Positions 56,338 through 63,993 of a stretch of DNA of 64,000 nucleotides are shown here, one piece after another. Source of the stretch: a bacterium (lineage in GTDB: Bacteria > Verrucomicrobiota > Verrucomicrobiia > Limisphaerales > UBA11358); the NCBI GenBank assembly GCA_021817945.1, contig JAKAFL010000009.1, forward strand, positions 1 through 64,000, written 5' to 3'. Each line of letters opens with the position of its first letter. Position 1 is the stretch's first letter. Both the position numbers and the translations under genes were made by a program. A model generated the notes under the pieces. The model had not been told where the DNA came from. It made no database searches and saw only the letters and a program-made list of their open reading frames with translations.

Positions 56338-57219
56338 TTAATTCAAACCGGCCAACCGCCCGGTCTTTGATTCCATTAATTCCCTCAGCATGCCCTTGAA
56401 CCCGAACTGCGCCAGCAGGTCCTGCAGCCTGGGTGTGTCTTCAGCGCCGGGTTTGACCTGATCCGGGATAAATTCACATGGCACACTCTGCAGGCGGACC
56501 AAGTCCAGGTTTTTGTAAACCAATGGCTTGGAGGCATCCAAAGCTGCGGCCAGACGGGGTGATTTCACCTCCGCAATCCGCTCATAAATCTTGTCCACCG
56601 ATCCAAATTGCCCCAGCAAAGAGGCGGCTGTCTTGGGTCCCACACCCGGCACACCCGGAATGTTGTCCACCTGATCACCCATCAGGGCCAGCCAATCTGC
56701 CACCTGATCAGGGTTCACGCCTGATTTGGCCCTAACCTGTTCCGCCCCCCAAACCATCCCCGATTTATCATTGGGGTTCAACAGGCCAATTCGATCATCC
56801 ACCAACTGCATAAAATCCTTGTCGGCGCTGGCAATGATCACCTGCCACCCCGCATCTGCCGCCAGACGTGCCACGCAGCCGATATGATCATCCGCTTCAA
56901 CTCCATCCGCACAAAAATCCGCCACCCCCGCTGCAGAGAGGTAGTGGCGAATCCTCTCAAACTGCGGCCTCAAATCATCCGGCATTGATGGCCGTTGCGC
57001 CTTGTATGCCGGCCATCTTTTAAGGCGCTCCGCGCTCAATCCGCCATCCCAAACCACCAATACATGCGTGGGACCCAAATCCGACCGCATTTTTGTCAAC
57101 GCCTTTATGAACCCGTAGATGGCATTGACCGCCATACCTTCTGGAGACTTGAGTTCCTTGATTGCGTAAAACGACCTGTAGGCATAGGCGTGACCATCAA
57201 TCAACAACAGCTTGTTCAC
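56338..57219 (-). CDS. Stand-alone 5'-3' exonuclease (Pol I N-terminal domain-like)
   Basis: MNKLLLIDGHAYAYRSFYAIKELKSPEGMAVNAIYGFIKALTKM...DGVEADDHIGCVARLA...SADKDFMQLVDD...ADWLALMGDQVDNIPGVPGVGPKTAASLL. Confidence 0.92.
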   Translation of the reverse strand: MNKLLLIDGHAYAYRSFYAIKELKSPEGMAVNAIYGFIKALTKMRSDLGPTHVLVVWDGGLSAERLKRWPAYKAQRPSMPDDLRPQFERIRHYLSAAGVADFCADGVEADDHIGCVARLAADAGWQVIIASADKDFMQLVDDRIGLLNPNDKSGMVWGAEQVRAKSGVNPDQVADWLALMGDQVDNIPGVPGVGPKTAASLLGQFGSVDKIYERIAEVKSPRLAAALDASKPLVYKNLDLVRLQSVPCEFIPDQVKPGAEDTPRLQDLLAQFGFKGMLRELMESKTGRLAGLN

Positions 57220-57221
57220 CG

Positions 57222-57887
57222 CTATTGCATGTTGGGTATGGAATGCGTGTTCTGCACCGTTTCCTCCGGTGTGGTGGCACCCGCAGGCTGGGATGGAATA
57301 GCGTTTTGGGCAAAAGGCAGCTCATCATCCGAATGAACGCGGTTCCCGGCCGGGTCAACGATGGTCGCCGTCACAAAAATCATGAGGTTTTTTTTGACAG
57401 ACGACTTGCTGCTGCTTTGAAACAAATTCCCAACAACCGGAATATCCCCAAGAACGGGCACTTTATCCTCGGTGCTCTCCACTTGTGAAGAAATCAACCC
57501 GCCAATCACCACCGTCTGGCTGTCCCAAACGTTCACGGTGGCAATCACCTGGCGCACTGTGAAGTTGGGCAAAATCACCGGCAATTGAACCACGTTCAAA
57601 CTTCCCGTGACATTCGCTATATTGGGTGGTGTGTCGTAACCGTTGAAATCGGTCAGGGAGGGAATCAGCGTCAAGTTGATCGTGTAGCCATCAGACAGGA
57701 CATAGGGTACTACGTCTAGAATCGGCCCAATCTCCACCTGCTGGGTATAGGGAATGATTGCTGATGCCCCTGGAGTGATGCTGGTCACCTGAGCCATCAA
57801 ATCTGGCGCCGCAGCAAAACCGAGTCCCACGGCACAGGCCAGGACCGCCTGCCTTGAGCAATTTTGTTTCGTCATAATCTTTTTCAT
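57222..57887 (-). CDS. C-terminal half of a secretin, preceded by its own signal peptide
   Basis: 'MKKIMTKQNCSRQAVLACAVGLGFAAAPDLMAQ' then 'VEIGPILDVVPYVLSDGYTINLTLIPS...VNVWDSQTVVIGGLISSQVESTEDKVPVLGDIPVVGNLFQSSSKSSVKKNLMIFVTATIVDP'. Confidence 0.88.
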   Translation of the reverse strand: MKKIMTKQNCSRQAVLACAVGLGFAAAPDLMAQVTSITPGASAIIPYTQQVEIGPILDVVPYVLSDGYTINLTLIPSLTDFNGYDTPPNIANVTGSLNVVQLPVILPNFTVRQVIATVNVWDSQTVVIGGLISSQVESTEDKVPVLGDIPVVGNLFQSSSKSSVKKNLMIFVTATIVDPAGNRVHSDDELPFAQNAIPSQPAGATTPEETVQNTHSIPNMQ

Positions 57888-57917
57888 GAAGGAAATGGAT
57901 TGAATCAGGACTGAAAA

Positions 57918-60272
57918 TCAGGGAAGTCCACCCACACCCAAGCTCGTGGTGGTATTGGCCTGTTGGAACCCGAAGCTCGTAACCACCGATTGCAAAACCG
58001 TGGCGCGCATCTGCGTCTGGCGCCCGCTGATGGTGGTGGCTTCCGGTTCAGCCAACTGCTCCACCCCGTCCCTTTGTTGAAGGGCCTGCAAAGCCACTTG
58101 AAAATTAGGCTGGGTAAAGATTCCAGTGATGGTCCCCAGGGTCGGCGCACCCAAGGTGTTTCTGAGCCCCGAGGTGAGGGATTGGTCATTGGCCGAAGGT
58201 TGAACTTCATTAGCCGTGGATGTTCCAGGGAACACACCCAGTGGATTGGCCGCAGACGGAGTGGTGTTGAGTGAGCTTGATGAACCACCCTGTCCTACAA
58301 CACCCTGACCGATATTGAATTGACCCAAATACCACTGGAAGCCCAAAGCTTCGGAATTGTTTTCTGTAACCTCAATGAAACGCGCCTTGATGTGAACCTG
58401 TGGAGGTAATTGATCCAAGGCTTGAATGGCACGCTCGATGGTATCCAGATCATCTTCAGTCGCTTTCACAAATAATAACCCCAAGCGATCATTGAAAAAC
58501 ACCGATTTACCAGGAGGACTCTGCAAATTGATCCCCAACGTGGTGAAAAAGTTACGGGCTGCAAGACTGACATCGGCAGACAGATTAACTGTGGTAATAT
58601 ACCTCAGGCCGCCTGCAGAGGTCGAAGTTCCGCCAGCACCACCGGGAAGGCCGCCTCTCGCCAAGGGATCCGTGGATCCGCCACCAGCGCCGCCAGCGCC
58701 GCCGGTTGCTCCGCCTCCACCACCCTGCGATCCAGCTTGGCGGGCTGCAGCAGCTCCAGGAACGGCATCCACCACGCCCAAAACACCCCCAGTATTCTGG
58801 GTCTGGCCACCAGCACCGGCACCACCACCCGCGCCGCCACCGCCGCCACCACCAGCACCACCACCGGCACCGCCGCCTGTGCTGGATGATTGCACAGAAC
58901 CAAAGTTTTCAGCATCCACGCTCTCCAAACCGGAGTAGAACGTATTGGGATCCACCCTGAAGGTCCGCATCATCAACTGGGGTGTTTCAACTCCCTTGTC
59001 TGAAAACACCACGCCATAATCTTGAACGGAGTACTTGATGGAATGGCCGGATGGATGTTCCGCAACCAAAAGAATGGCATCCAGCACCTCCGCCAAAGTG
59101 ACGTCACTGAGGTCCAATTTGACTTGAACCGAGGAAATATCAATAGGCTCACTGCCGCCACCTCCGGCCGGGGAAGCGACAGGCAATCCGGTATTCGGAT
59201 CAATGGCTCCGCTTTGGGCTGTTGTCGGCGCAGGCAAAGGAGCAGGCGCTGCAAATCCGCCGCCGCCGCCACCCGCACCTCCGCCAAAGTTGACCTGTGG
59301 AACGGCAATGGGAGGCCCTGATTCATCGGCATTAGGGTTAATGAGGAAATTGATTCCTTTCCGATCTGGATCCCGCAACTTGGACTGTTCCGATAATTGG
59401 CGCAGCACTTCACTCAGTGGCAACCCATCAAAATTCACCTCATCCAAATGAATGCGGTTGAGCTTGTCCATGATGATTTGACGGCCCGGCCCGGTGTAAA
59501 CCAAATCGTTGGTGGCGTATGGATTGGGAACGGGCAATTGCACATGCGGCGTTGGCAAAACCCACTGTTTTTCCACCTGGTCCATCCGCAAACGTGAATC
59601 GAGTGAGTGCTCGGCGGAATTGCGGGCATAATTTGCCTCGCCGATCAGGTTGAGATAGTAATAGGCGGCACGATTATCAGGATCCAATTTCAAAGCATCG
59701 CGAAGCTTTTGTTGCGCATCATCCAGTTTGCCCATTTCGTACAACACCTTGGCATCCTGCACCATGGTGGCCGCGTCCACTTTCTGGGAGGCGATTTGGG
59801 GCACCTCGTCCATGATGGCTGGCGAGGGCAGCTTGCCCTTGAGCGAATCCAGGATCTGATCGTTTTTTTGCTTGAAAGCAATGGCAGCTTGGTTGGATGG
59901 GTCCGCCTTGAGCACCGCGTTCACCCGAACCTGAGCCTCGCGATAATCACCACGGCTTTGGGCATCCTGAGCCAGCAACATGGAGGTAGTGCTTAGGCCC
60001 GCCACGGCTTGGGCGGTTTCGGTCTCAATGCCCGGACCAATCTGCTGGGCCAAATCCACGCACTCCTGATAGGCTTTCGCAGCGCCGAGAATGTCTCCCC
60101 GCTGGTAAATGGACTGGGCTTCGACCAACTTCTGCCTTAAAACGATCGTATTGGCCTGGTTTTCCACTGATTGATGCACAGCCATGTCAATGGGTGTGCC
60201 CTGGGCCAGGGCAAGCGATGGAATCAAAAGCAGCGCGGATAATCCGAACGCTAAACAAGGTACTTTAATCAT
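57918..60272 (-). CDS. N-terminal part of secretin (TPR-like region, N-domains, first part of secretin barrel domain)
   Basis: Signal peptide; N-domain 'FFNDRLGLLFVKATEDDLDTIERAIQALDQLPPQVHIKARFIEVTENNSEALGFQW'; 'FQVALQALQQRDGVEQLAEPEATTISGRQTQMRATVLQSVVTSFGFQQ' then stop. Confidence 0.9.
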   Translation of the reverse strand: MIKVPCLAFGLSALLLIPSLALAQGTPIDMAVHQSVENQANTIVLRQKLVEAQSIYQRGDILGAAKAYQECVDLAQQIGPGIETETAQAVAGLSTTSMLLAQDAQSRGDYREAQVRVNAVLKADPSNQAAIAFKQKNDQILDSLKGKLPSPAIMDEVPQIASQKVDAATMVQDAKVLYEMGKLDDAQQKLRDALKLDPDNRAAYYYLNLIGEANYARNSAEHSLDSRLRMDQVEKQWVLPTPHVQLPVPNPYATNDLVYTGPGRQIIMDKLNRIHLDEVNFDGLPLSEVLRQLSEQSKLRDPDRKGINFLINPNADESGPPIAVPQVNFGGGAGGGGGGFAAPAPLPAPTTAQSGAIDPNTGLPVASPAGGGGSEPIDISSVQVKLDLSDVTLAEVLDAILLVAEHPSGHSIKYSVQDYGVVFSDKGVETPQLMMRTFRVDPNTFYSGLESVDAENFGSVQSSSTGGGAGGGAGGGGGGGAGGGAGAGGQTQNTGGVLGVVDAVPGAAAARQAGSQGGGGGATGGAGGAGGGSTDPLARGGLPGGAGGTSTSAGGLRYITTVNLSADVSLAARNFFTTLGINLQSPPGKSVFFNDRLGLLFVKATEDDLDTIERAIQALDQLPPQVHIKARFIEVTENNSEALGFQWYLGQFNIGQGVVGQGGSSSSLNTTPSAANPLGVFPGTSTANEVQPSANDQSLTSGLRNTLGAPTLGTITGIFTQPNFQVALQALQQRDGVEQLAEPEATTISGRQTQMRATVLQSVVTSFGFQQANTTTSLGVGGLP

Positions 60273-60323: not shown

Positions 60324-61115
60324 TCAGGGCGTATATGGCAACGTGTATTTTCTTTGGTTTGATTGGTCCTCTAAAACTAATTCATCCTGGTTGACATCCT
60401 GAACCAGATAATCCACTCCAGCGAATGATACCAAATCGCCCACTCGTTTTCCATTGAAAACCTTTTTTTCAGGAGCGTAACTGAAATCCGCCGAATAGGC
60501 GTCCACGCGCTGATAGGGTTTGCCCGGTTGAACGGTCACGATTTCGCCGGTATCAACCAGTTTTACCTTCAAGGCGCTTGGATTGGAGGGATCGCCGGAG
60601 ACACTCAACAATTCAAAGGCATCGTTTTTATCCCCCACAGAGACGAAATGCTGTTCGGGGCGGCGTTTGTAAAGCTGTTTTTCGGCCTGCTTTTCGACAT
60701 AGACCTGGTAACGCGCTCCAAATTCATTGGTCATGGTTTCATTGAAGGACAACTTGAAGTAAAGTGGGTGGATGCCTGTGACCTTGGCCGCGCCAGCGCC
60801 TATTTCATTGCCATTGCTGATCTTGATCAACGATCCATCCGCCGTCTTCTGCCATTCCATGGTGTTGAAAAGCTTGTTGGTGGTGTTGAAATCCAGGGTG
60901 TAATCCCCTTGAACCCTGGCAAGAGCCTGGGACTCCACCGAAAGATCCAAATCCGGCAACGGGGGGGCCGTGCGCTTGATGTAGCCATTGGAACTGTTCA
61001 CCATTGCCTCATGATCGGCGCTGATGTAAAAAAACATGAAGACAAGAACCCCGATCAGGCCCGCCAAAACGATGCCCAACAGAATTTTTTCGTAATTTTT
61101 CTTGATGAAGTCCAT
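60324..61115 (-). CDS. Single-pass inner-membrane/periplasmic protein of pilus/secretion locus (Amuc_1099-position)
   Basis: MDFIKKNYEKILLGIVLAGLIGVLVFMFFYISA TM anchor; 'FNGKRVGDLVSFAGVDYLVQDVNQDELVLEDQ'; operon position between secretin and Amuc_1100-like gene. Confidence 0.65.
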   Translation of the reverse strand: MDFIKKNYEKILLGIVLAGLIGVLVFMFFYISADHEAMVNSSNGYIKRTAPPLPDLDLSVESQALARVQGDYTLDFNTTNKLFNTMEWQKTADGSLIKISNGNEIGAGAAKVTGIHPLYFKLSFNETMTNEFGARYQVYVEKQAEKQLYKRRPEQHFVSVGDKNDAFELLSVSGDPSNPSALKVKLVDTGEIVTVQPGKPYQRVDAYSADFSYAPEKKVFNGKRVGDLVSFAGVDYLVQDVNQDELVLEDQSNQRKYTLPYTP

Positions 61116-62120
61116 TTAGTTATTAGGCAATAGCTTCACAATTTCCACTTCCATTGTGGTGCGCAATAATTGCTCCTTGAGCACCGTCTGCAATCCACCC
61201 CGGGCCGAAACCGGTACCTGTGGCGCGGGTGTGGCAGGCGGGTATCCGGGGTATCCTCGCAGCGCGGGCGGATAGCCCGGCGTGGCAGGCGGGTATCCTG
61301 GATAAGCCGGGTTGCCAGGATTGCCCGGCATTTGATTTGGGTAAGCTCCCATGGGCATGCCCTGTGGCACCGATTGATCTGTTCCCCCGTCGTTGGAGGC
61401 CGGTTCCACGTTGATCGAATGAACAATGAATTCATTTGATGAATTGGCGAAGGCACAGATGACCTTGGCAATTTCAGGCGAGAAGGACCGGAATGAAATC
61501 ACATAGGGGGTTAGGATGGCCATGTCATTGGTGAAAGGTTGCATCTGTGCGTAGTCACTCTGCGGCCCATTGATATCATCGTCCGACACATGCACCCGCT
61601 GAATGGAGTCCAAGGAATTGACCTGCGCGGAAAAAACCAGCTCAGAAATCGCTTTGACCTCTCCCAACTGTTGGGCCAAAGGATCCAAACTGCCGGCGGC
61701 AAACTGCATCAGCGGCTTTTGCGCATCAAAGGAAAACATATACTCAGGCGGCAGCATGACCCCGCTCGCTTGGGCATCCTTGGTCAATTGGGCCAGGGTA
61801 CGTCGCAATGCGGCGGCAAACCGCTCGCTGGTGACGTTCCCATCTGGTATGGGGCTGATGGGTAAAAAATATCCACTGGTGGAGTGGATCCAGTCTTTAA
61901 GCTGTTTTTCCTGGTCCTTGGCCAGTTGTGCATTGTTGGCGCCTGGACCTGGTTTTTCATCAGCCAATTGTTTCAAGGTGCTGTAAATGTCTGCAAGCTT
62001 GCCTGAGGCATCTGAATTTTTGGAATACCCCTGATAGATGTAAAAACCCGCGCCTCCCAGTAAAACCAATGCAATGGAACCGCCAACGACAAAAAATAAA
62101 TTTCGCTTTATCCAGCCCAT
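61116..62120 (-). CDS. Amuc_1100-like membrane-anchored periplasmic protein with Pro/Gly/Tyr-rich C-terminal segment
   Basis: TM anchor; 'LGEVKAISELVFSAQVNSLDSIQRVHV' and 'ISFRSFSPEIAKVICAFANSSNEFIVHSINVEP' resemble my memory of Amuc_1100 'FELKAINSLVNKLAECGLSKFIKVYR...IAFQGDRESVLKAMNAITGMQDYLFTVNSIRI'. Confidence 0.65.
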   Translation of the reverse strand: MGWIKRNLFFVVGGSIALVLLGGAGFYIYQGYSKNSDASGKLADIYSTLKQLADEKPGPGANNAQLAKDQEKQLKDWIHSTSGYFLPISPIPDGNVTSERFAAALRRTLAQLTKDAQASGVMLPPEYMFSFDAQKPLMQFAAGSLDPLAQQLGEVKAISELVFSAQVNSLDSIQRVHVSDDDINGPQSDYAQMQPFTNDMAILTPYVISFRSFSPEIAKVICAFANSSNEFIVHSINVEPASNDGGTDQSVPQGMPMGAYPNQMPGNPGNPAYPGYPPATPGYPPALRGYPGYPPATPAPQVPVSARGGLQTVLKEQLLRTTMEVEIVKLLPNN

Positions 62121-62121
62121 A

Positions 62122-63993
62122 TTAAAAATCCAATGGTTTCAGAGGAGTCACATTCACTGTGAACGAGAACGTTCCGGTGGTATCATCCGTGGTGATTTGG
62201 CCCACGACCATGGTGGACTTGGGGTCCACCAGGTGCGAACTTTTAATGGCATCCCCCACAGCGTAGGCAATTTCCGGGTTGGCCGAAGGATCCACACTGG
62301 TGAGGCTGACCGCCCTGCAAAACAGGGTAACGGAGTTGGTGTTCGAACTGGAAATGGTGCCAAGCGCAGGAGCAGGTGCCGACGCAGGCGGACCGGACAT
62401 TCCGGGCATTCCGGGCATCGCCCCTGGCACCGGGACTTGGTAATTAATCCCCATTTGAGGGGGAGCCCCTTGAGGGGGAGCGCCGACCCCGAGGGCCACC
62501 GAACCGGCCAGGCTGGGGTCCGTGGTCATTTTTTCAACCCACACCCCAACCTGCACTCCGGGCTTTTGAGCACCCAGTTTTCTAGCCACCTGATTCTCTG
62601 CATTGATCAGGGCCAGCCTCATGTCCGCCAGAAAATCACCCCAATAATACCTGTCCTGCAAAAAATCGGAGATTTGTTCGGCGGAATTTCTGGCATTTTG
62701 AAGTTTTTTGTAAGCTTGATTAAACGAGGTTGACTTGGCTTGGGCGGCATCCACCTGGGGCTGAATCCGGTCAATCTCCGCCTGCTTGCTGCCCGCCAAT
62801 TGGTCAAAAAGAAAACCCACGGCAAAAGCCACCAGAACGAGACTGAAAACCGTGGCTGCCAGATAGGGTTTTTTCTCGTTCAAAGCCTGCCAGCGCAAGG
62901 TGCTTTCCGGCATTAAATTCATTTCCACCGGGCAATTGGCCAGATTGCGCAGGCCCAATCCGACCACCTCGCCAAAACAGTGCGCCACACGCGACAACTC
63001 CTCCAAATTCACGGAGGAATCAATCTGCACATTTCGGAAGGGGTTGAAGTATTCCACCGGCAGGTTGAGTTTTTCCGCAAAAAACTGGGCTGTGTAAGGC
63101 ATGATGGATGCCCCGCCTGAAAGAAAGAGGCGCTGGGGCGCCGAACCGCCCTGCTGGCCGCGGTAAAACTGCATGGTCTGGTTGACCTGAATGTGCAGTT
63201 TGGTCATGAACTGGCGGGCTATTTTTGAAATGGCCGCCTGATGAGGATTATCCGGCTCCTCGTAGGCCCCGCCCAAGCTGACAAAACCCTCGGCAATCTT
63301 GATCTTCTCCGCTTCATCAAACTTCAGCTTGGATTCATTGGCGAAGTCCTGGGTGATGGCATTGGCTCCAAGATTGATGCTGCGGGAGAAGACTTTTCCC
63401 TTTTCAAAGAAAAGCAGGTTGCTGGTCTTTGCCCCAATATCCAGCAACATGGTGCAATCTTCCAAATCACTATAGTTGAATTTAAAGGCGTTGCACAAAG
63501 CCGCCATGGAGGCGTCGCACAATTGAAGCTTGAGTTTGGACTGTTCGGCCACCCGGAACAGGCCCTCCACGATTTCCGACTTGATGGCCACCAGCAAAAC
63601 TTCCAACTCACCACTCGCTGCGGAGCCTAGGATTTGATAATCCCAAACGACTTCTGACAAGGGAAACGGAACATTTTGCTGGGCCTCGTACTGGATGATC
63701 TGCCCCACTTTGCTGGCTTCCACCGGGGGTAATTTGACGAACTTGGAAAAAACATGAAAACCCGGGGCGCAGACATTCACAAACTTGGGCTTCAAATCGC
63801 GTTCGGCGATCACCCCCTGCAAGGCTTGTTGGATGGCTTTTTCCCTGCTGGCTTCCTGCGAGCCTTCCAACCCGAGAGGTTGAATAATAAAACTCTTCAG
63901 GCAAAGCCCGCCTTCCTCATTGATTGCAAACTCAGCCAGCTTCAAGCTGCCCGCCCCAAAATCAATGGTCAAAAATGACTTGATGTTCAACAT
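62122..63993 (-). CDS. PilM-like ATPase fused to a PilN-like membrane/periplasmic domain
   Basis: 'FLTIDFGAGSLKLAEFAI...KLPPVEASKVGQIIQYEAQQNVPFPLSEVVWDYQIL...RLFLSGGASIMPYTAQFFAEKLNLPVEYFNPF' then TM 'LAATVFSLVLVAFAVGFLFDQL' and coiled coil. Confidence 0.88.
   Translation of the reverse strand: MLNIKSFLTIDFGAGSLKLAEFAINEEGGLCLKSFIIQPLGLEGSQEASREKAIQQALQGVIAERDLKPKFVNVCAPGFHVFSKFVKLPPVEASKVGQIIQYEAQQNVPFPLSEVVWDYQILGSAASGELEVLLVAIKSEIVEGLFRVAEQSKLKLQLCDASMAALCNAFKFNYSDLEDCTMLLDIGAKTSNLLFFEKGKVFSRSINLGANAITQDFANESKLKFDEAEKIKIAEGFVSLGGAYEEPDNPHQAAISKIARQFMTKLHIQVNQTMQFYRGQQGGSAPQRLFLSGGASIMPYTAQFFAEKLNLPVEYFNPFRNVQIDSSVNLEELSRVAHCFGEVVGLGLRNLANCPVEMNLMPESTLRWQALNEKKPYLAATVFSLVLVAFAVGFLFDQLAGSKQAEIDRIQPQVDAAQAKSTSFNQAYKKLQNARNSAEQISDFLQDRYYWGDFLADMRLALINAENQVARKLGAQKPGVQVGVWVEKMTTDPSLAGSVALGVGAPPQGAPPQMGINYQVPVPGAMPGMPGMSGPPASAPAPALGTISSSNTNSVTLFCRAVSLTSVDPSANPEIAYAVGDAIKSSHLVDPKSTMVVGQITTDDTTGTFSFTVNVTPLKPLDF

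Follow-up and report, generated by a model that had tools for sequence, protein, structure and literature searches.

A PilQ-type secretin of Limisphaerales probably built from two chains divided at the central-gate loop

Results and Discussion

Two adjacent open reading frames on the minus strand of the DNA analysed here (the window, 64,000 nt of a Limisphaerales genome, phylum Verrucomicrobiota) most probably encode a functional two-chain PilQ of the Amuc_1098 type, part of a type IV pilus, in which the gate loops have free ends. The first frame, ORF1, is made up of a signal peptide, TPRs, N-domains and the secretin C-domain as far as the putative first central-gate arm, and the second, ORF2, has a signal-peptide-like start, the putative second gate arm and the remainder of the secretin domain. 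The features of the locus, in the order of transcription, are:

62122..63993, minus strand: PilM/Amuc_1101-like protein (PF11104, E 2e-38; TIGR01175, 136.5 bits for a cut-off of 133)
61116..62120, minus strand: Amuc_1100-like pilus protein (NF038287, E 9e-20, under the curated cut-off)
60324..61115, minus strand: Amuc_1099-like pilus protein (NF042425, E 0.0024, a weak match under the curated cut-off)
57918..60272, minus strand: ORF1, 784 aa, ending in TGA (Amuc_1098 family, E 2e-64)
57921..58001, minus strand: C-terminal tail of ORF1, residues 758-784, predicted first central-gate arm with a low-complexity end (...FGFQQANTTTSLGVGGLP before the stop)
57888..57917, minus strand: intergenic gap of 30 nt separating ORF1 from ORF2
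57222..57887, minus strand: ORF2, 221 aa (PF00263 positions 51-169, E 6e-28; Amuc_1098 family positions 661-804 of 805)
57792..57887, minus strand: putative Sec signal peptide of ORF2, residues 1-32, read from the sequence
57726..57791, minus strand: mature N-terminus of ORF2, residues 33-54, predicted second central-gate arm (placed from a fused relative's model, by its disordered loop 479-502 and the strand that starts at 505)

Locus organization and the divided secretin domain

The gene order leading to ORF1/ORF2, Amuc_1101(PilM)-1100-1099-1098-like, is that of the Amuc_1098 family operon, with the caveat that the 1099 match is weak and the 1100 and 1101 matches score under their family cut-offs, and the locus is an Amuc_1098-type PilQ secretin within a pilus operon. 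ORF1 and ORF2 are presumably co-transcribed, because the 30-nt gap is too short for a promoter. The genome as a whole gives ten hits for the type II/IV secretion ATPase family, and a complete PF00263 domain occurs at three further loci. A phmmer search of the Amuc_1100-like protein against the PDB returned no match. Directly after ORF2 lies a 293-aa ORF (window 56338-57219) that by eye resembles a PolA-type 5'-3' exonuclease domain and has no obvious functional connection with the pilus. ORF1 itself contains a long Gly-rich low-complexity stretch ahead of its last N-domain (window 58600-58930), the counterpart of which (residues 165-272 in a modelled fused relative) was predicted to be disordered.

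Both frames were found where the first-pass annotation had placed them, with no further frameshift in either, and its claim that ORF1 carries the start of a secretin domain and ORF2 the rest was borne out by complementary matches in four profiles: MshL (ORF1 3-138, ORF2 168-290, of 290), SctC (210-321 and 343-462, of 463), PilQ (129-293 and 360-427, of 428) and the Amuc_1098 family itself (ORF1 from position 24, ORF2 as listed above). In the Pfam Secretin alignment that the same annotation had proposed as a check, ORF2 alone covered PF00263 as far as its last position, 169, above the cut-off; the ORF1 of the window gave no match at E <= 0.1, and the ORF1s of two split relatives matched positions 1-38 and 1-41, below the cut-off, so that the halves, with the ORF1 side taken from these relatives, fall on adjoining parts of one domain. 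ORF1-type ends and ORF2 together thus cover the domain that one fused chain spans, and the single polypeptide that is usual for PF00263, though not strictly defining, is interrupted here by a stop, a gap and a new signal-peptide-like start. Bit scores to NF042912 were 217.7 for ORF1 and 130.4 for ORF2, under the curated whole-protein cut-off of 750, but this model fits Limisphaerales loosely, because a fused relative with a truncated N-terminus reached only 289.2 bits. As judged from these alignments, ORF1 and ORF2 are complementary portions of one PilQ secretin.

Conservation of the split and alternative explanations

Conservation among relatives, a further check named in the first-pass annotation, favoured a genuine split. 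Among the 46 genomes of the genus with a readable orthologous junction the secretin was split in 32 and fused in 14 (the genus sample held 49 genomes including this one, and in the remaining three there was a paralogue alone or no strong hit). The split form was also found in seven further families of the order (f16, f19, f28, f31, f43, f44 and f54), for a total of 53 split loci from eight families, and the fused form in other families, for example at 9 of 9 loci read in f9; the order-level sample consisted chiefly of metagenome-assembled genomes. Other orders sampled had the one-gene form, and no split secretin outside the order was seen among the matches listed in the class, one short frame (G330) being a contig end. 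Fused relatives have a single gene of ~900-1000 aa with a low-complexity linker, rich in Gly, Ser, Thr and Asn, at the cut site.

ORF2 lay immediately downstream of ORF1 at every one of the 53 split loci, with a gap of 0 to 208 nt (median 23.5; one locus with a broken ORF1 left out). It was in the same frame as ORF1 at 22 loci, as it is in the window, and in another at 31; all three frame relations occurred, as did three stop codons at the end of ORF1. The near-relative G063 (DAIDJC010000080.1), an independent assembly, was likewise split, with an ORF2 99% identical. Between the present genome (G000) and G063, its closest relative, dN/dS was 0.08 for ORF1 (317 shared codons) and 0.05 for ORF2, and purifying selection acts on both halves.

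Residues 1-32 of ORF2 resemble a Sec signal peptide (MKKIMTKQNCSRQAVLACAVGLGFAAAPDLMA, with the putative cleavage before Q), and the plausible signal peptide of the first-pass annotation gained support from a 9-residue Kyte-Doolittle peak >= 1.9 near the start in 53/53 split ORF2s, most of which end this segment in an A-Q-type cleavage motif. The hydrophobicity score by itself is no proof of a signal peptide, because windows on fused linkers also scored high (top window 2.5, with 17 of 65 reaching 1.5, the barrel strand being caught in the window). Within the genus, ORF2 signal peptides were closer to each other than to ORF1 signal peptides or to those from other families, a similarity that is only modest and comes from pairs that are not independent. 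An origin of the ORF2 signal peptide as a copy of the ORF1 one was unsupported by this comparison.

These observations bear on several alternatives to a two-chain secretin. Decay, in which a stop codon broke the gene and left the downstream piece as a remnant, could be imagined in a genome that holds other whole secretin domains and in a group where some relatives keep the one-gene form, but it is very unlikely given an identical cut in 53 loci of eight families, a signal-peptide-like start on each ORF2, the low dN/dS and the invariant motifs that ORF2 retains. The earlier preference for functional fission over decay is strongly supported by this many-species conservation, by the start and dN/dS values and by the linker-bridged fused homologues. 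A sequencing or assembly error, or read-through of the stop codon to yield one chain, might be suggested by the single TGA that terminates ORF1 and by the shared frame in the window; this is harder still to credit, as independent assemblies concur, ORF2 is in a different frame at 31 of 53 split loci and a signal-peptide-like segment stands between the halves. Three frame relations and three stop codons leave read-through no general explanation, and an isolated error can be excluded, since the split recurs in the independently assembled G063 and throughout the 53 loci. The first-pass annotation had been prepared to abandon its reading if close relatives were intact and the TGA was an assembly error; some relatives are indeed intact, but the many split ones rule out the error. 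Recurrence across assemblies, the 53 loci and the frame differences led us to set aside sequencing error, pseudogene and read-through alike.

Separate jobs for the two products, with ORF1 forming a barrel-poor ring and ORF2 working elsewhere or pairing with another secretin, appear unlikely, if less so than decay or error. An ORF2 with its own start and signal peptide would permit a dosage differing from that of ORF1. Against such a division of labour, ORF2 follows straight behind ORF1 at all split loci, its conservation covers the strands and motifs that fused relatives also conserve, and the alternation of fused and split states among close relatives suggests equivalent function. We retain the two-chain PilQ as the preferred reading.

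Two further features were noted among the relatives. The ORF1 of one split relative, L090 (G111:C1:444500-448700), is itself broken, being a 293-aa frame with an unrelated tail, perhaps through a frameshift or sequencing error. Several genus-mates (G004:C247, G005:C79, G018:C19, G021:C74, G002:C142 and others) have a second, larger paralogous single-chain secretin related to this PilQ, with open frames of ~1000-1800 aa.

Position of the cut

In an AlphaFold2 model of the fused relative L037, the junction corresponds to a disordered loop (residues 479-502, pLDDT <50) flanked by strands at 465-476 and 505-525. The best PDB matches of this model were GspD, PilQ and InvG secretins, at modest TM-scores that are expected of one ring subunit with long disordered parts. 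In a profile of fused relatives the strand ahead of the cut aligned to Vibrio cholerae GspD in the region of G453, the gate residue that carries a mutation in 5WQ9. In XcpD the central gate (residues 466-496) lies between two strands of the inner barrel; T477/S480 form its tips, and glycines at the base act as pivots (PMC10550240). We placed the ORF1 tail through the HMM alignment of fused relatives with GspD around G453, carried to the window by hand, with gate limits taken from XcpD. When positions were carried over by hand without gaps, the pivot position was followed by ~26 further residues of ORF1, and the next strand was preceded by ~20 residues of mature ORF2. The second pivot was set by eye, because the HMM alignment of the first ORF2 strands to GspD is ambiguous and shifted by ~ten residues. 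These lengths argue for one gate arm per chain. Alignment and model together place the cut in the central-gate loop, which links two strands of the inner barrel. The first-pass annotation had located the split inside the barrel domain, and this stands as to a cut within the secretin domain, with the refinement that the predicted site is the central-gate loop and not an arbitrary point of the barrel.

Three genomes from two other families, f43 (L087 and L088) and one f16 genus (L096), have an ORF1 that does not stop at the gate arm; a Peptidase_S74 domain (E 2e-13 to 4e-9) follows, and after it a coiled-coil-like end:

L087:305-3043, L088:257-3049 and L096:58-3054: ORF1s bearing S74 (chaperone of endosialidase), joined at the predicted central-gate tip

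S74 domains act in phage tail fibres as self-cleaving intramolecular chaperones. The presence of one at this point makes most sense if the end of the gate arm is a real chain end, and a self-removing chaperone on a free C-terminus may help assembly.

History of fission and fusion

A tree built from both parts, with the junction removed, required 11 changes between split and fused states, of which well-supported branches forced 9. A further tree, with its root on other orders, required 13; all such counts derive from gene trees with several weak branches, on which the exact numbers depend. With the root fused, a two-rate model reached lnL -44.2 vs -62.7 for fission alone, a difference of 18 log units, and irreversible fission would require 18 events on the rooted gene tree. 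Fused forms were interspersed among split ones within the genus, where a single clade of split forms was rejected (AU p 0.008) and a single clade of the 13 fused genus-mates was not (AU p 0.14). The state appears to have changed repeatedly, with apparent re-fusions, of which at least one is likely and several are possible. The resemblance among the ORF2 signal peptides of the genus, in pairs that are not independent, favours a single fission at its base.

A history in which each split lineage arose by its own fission, with zero re-fusion, could hold together with a two-chain PilQ. It draws on the AU result for the 13 fused genus-mates, which leaves the number of re-fusions uncertain, and on the only modest similarity of the genus ORF2 signal peptides. 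We consider it doubtful in view of the 18 events and 18 log units that it would cost, the rejection of one clade of split forms and the closer mutual resemblance of those same signal peptides (again, for non-independent pairs) than to ORF1's or other families'.

Comparison with known systems and proposed assembly

Akkermansia muciniphila PilQ (Amuc_1098), a protein of 907 aa with a secretin domain at 650-876, has been shown in the outer membrane (PMC4960237). The locus described here shares with it the NCBIfam family, the operon type Amuc_1101-1100-1099-1098, a TPR N-terminus and a secretin C-domain, but Amuc_1098 is a single polypeptide whereas here there are two, each with a signal peptide (putative in ORF2). 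The nearest precedent is RhcC1/RhcC2 of rhizobial type III secretion, likewise a secretin function divided over two genes (PMC3574062, PMC3973906), in which RhcC2, which is Tad-derived, contains the secretin domain and RhcC1 is an N-domain remnant from another secretin (PMC3459982). In that system the barrel domain is uncut and the genes are non-adjacent, whereas ORF1 and ORF2 are cut inside the secretin domain and do not divide into an N-domain chain and a chain with the entire secretin domain. The predicted site corresponds to the GspD/XcpD gate (PMC10550240), the loop that joins inner-barrel strands and has pivot glycines at its limits; this loop is continuous there but here would be cut at its tip, with free ends on both arms. 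TadB/TadC of the inner-membrane platform is also a fission of a type IV filament component gene (PMC6668835), although of a different component, split between two repeated domains in one ancient event.

In our literature search the phrase 'split secretin' occurred solely for rhizobial-type T3SS, and no report of a gate-cut secretin was found in the open-access literature searched, outside which most subscription papers lie. To our knowledge, the secretins of known structure have the barrel domain on a single chain. A cut at the gate loop that is kept in many species and is apparently reversible would mark a part of the channel that needs no covalent join, and fused and split sister species would offer natural matched pairs for the study of gate closing and opening and of the assembly of a large multi-chain barrel. 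It would also illustrate a route for splitting an exported protein in which the new half bears its own (putative) export signal.

In the assembly that we propose, ORF1 would contribute the periplasmic domains and the barrel strands until the first gate arm, and ORF2, presumably exported by its own signal peptide, would supply the second gate arm together with the rest of the strands. After separate export the chains would come together in the periplasm or in the outer membrane, where the double-walled barrel would be completed through the strand interfaces of the uncut protein, presumably by 1:1 co-assembly into a ring with about 14-15 copies of each chain. Closure would not depend on the linker lost at the gate tip, each gate hairpin being replaced by two free ends, and the channel would pass the pilus with altered gating. 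More speculatively, every gate loop could be opened at the pore axis to give ~28-30 free chain ends that are moved or regulated differently, in a gene that toggles between two-gene and one-gene forms and is aided in some families by an S74 chaperone during assembly; we regard this fuller picture as tentative. Loss of this secretin might be tolerated, given the three other whole PF00263 loci, but its conservation argues against this.

ORF2 modelled alone had a mean pLDDT of 53, whereas the same strands within a fused chain were mostly at ~75-90, which fits a partner-dependent chain, although the poor lone model could instead be due to its alignment.
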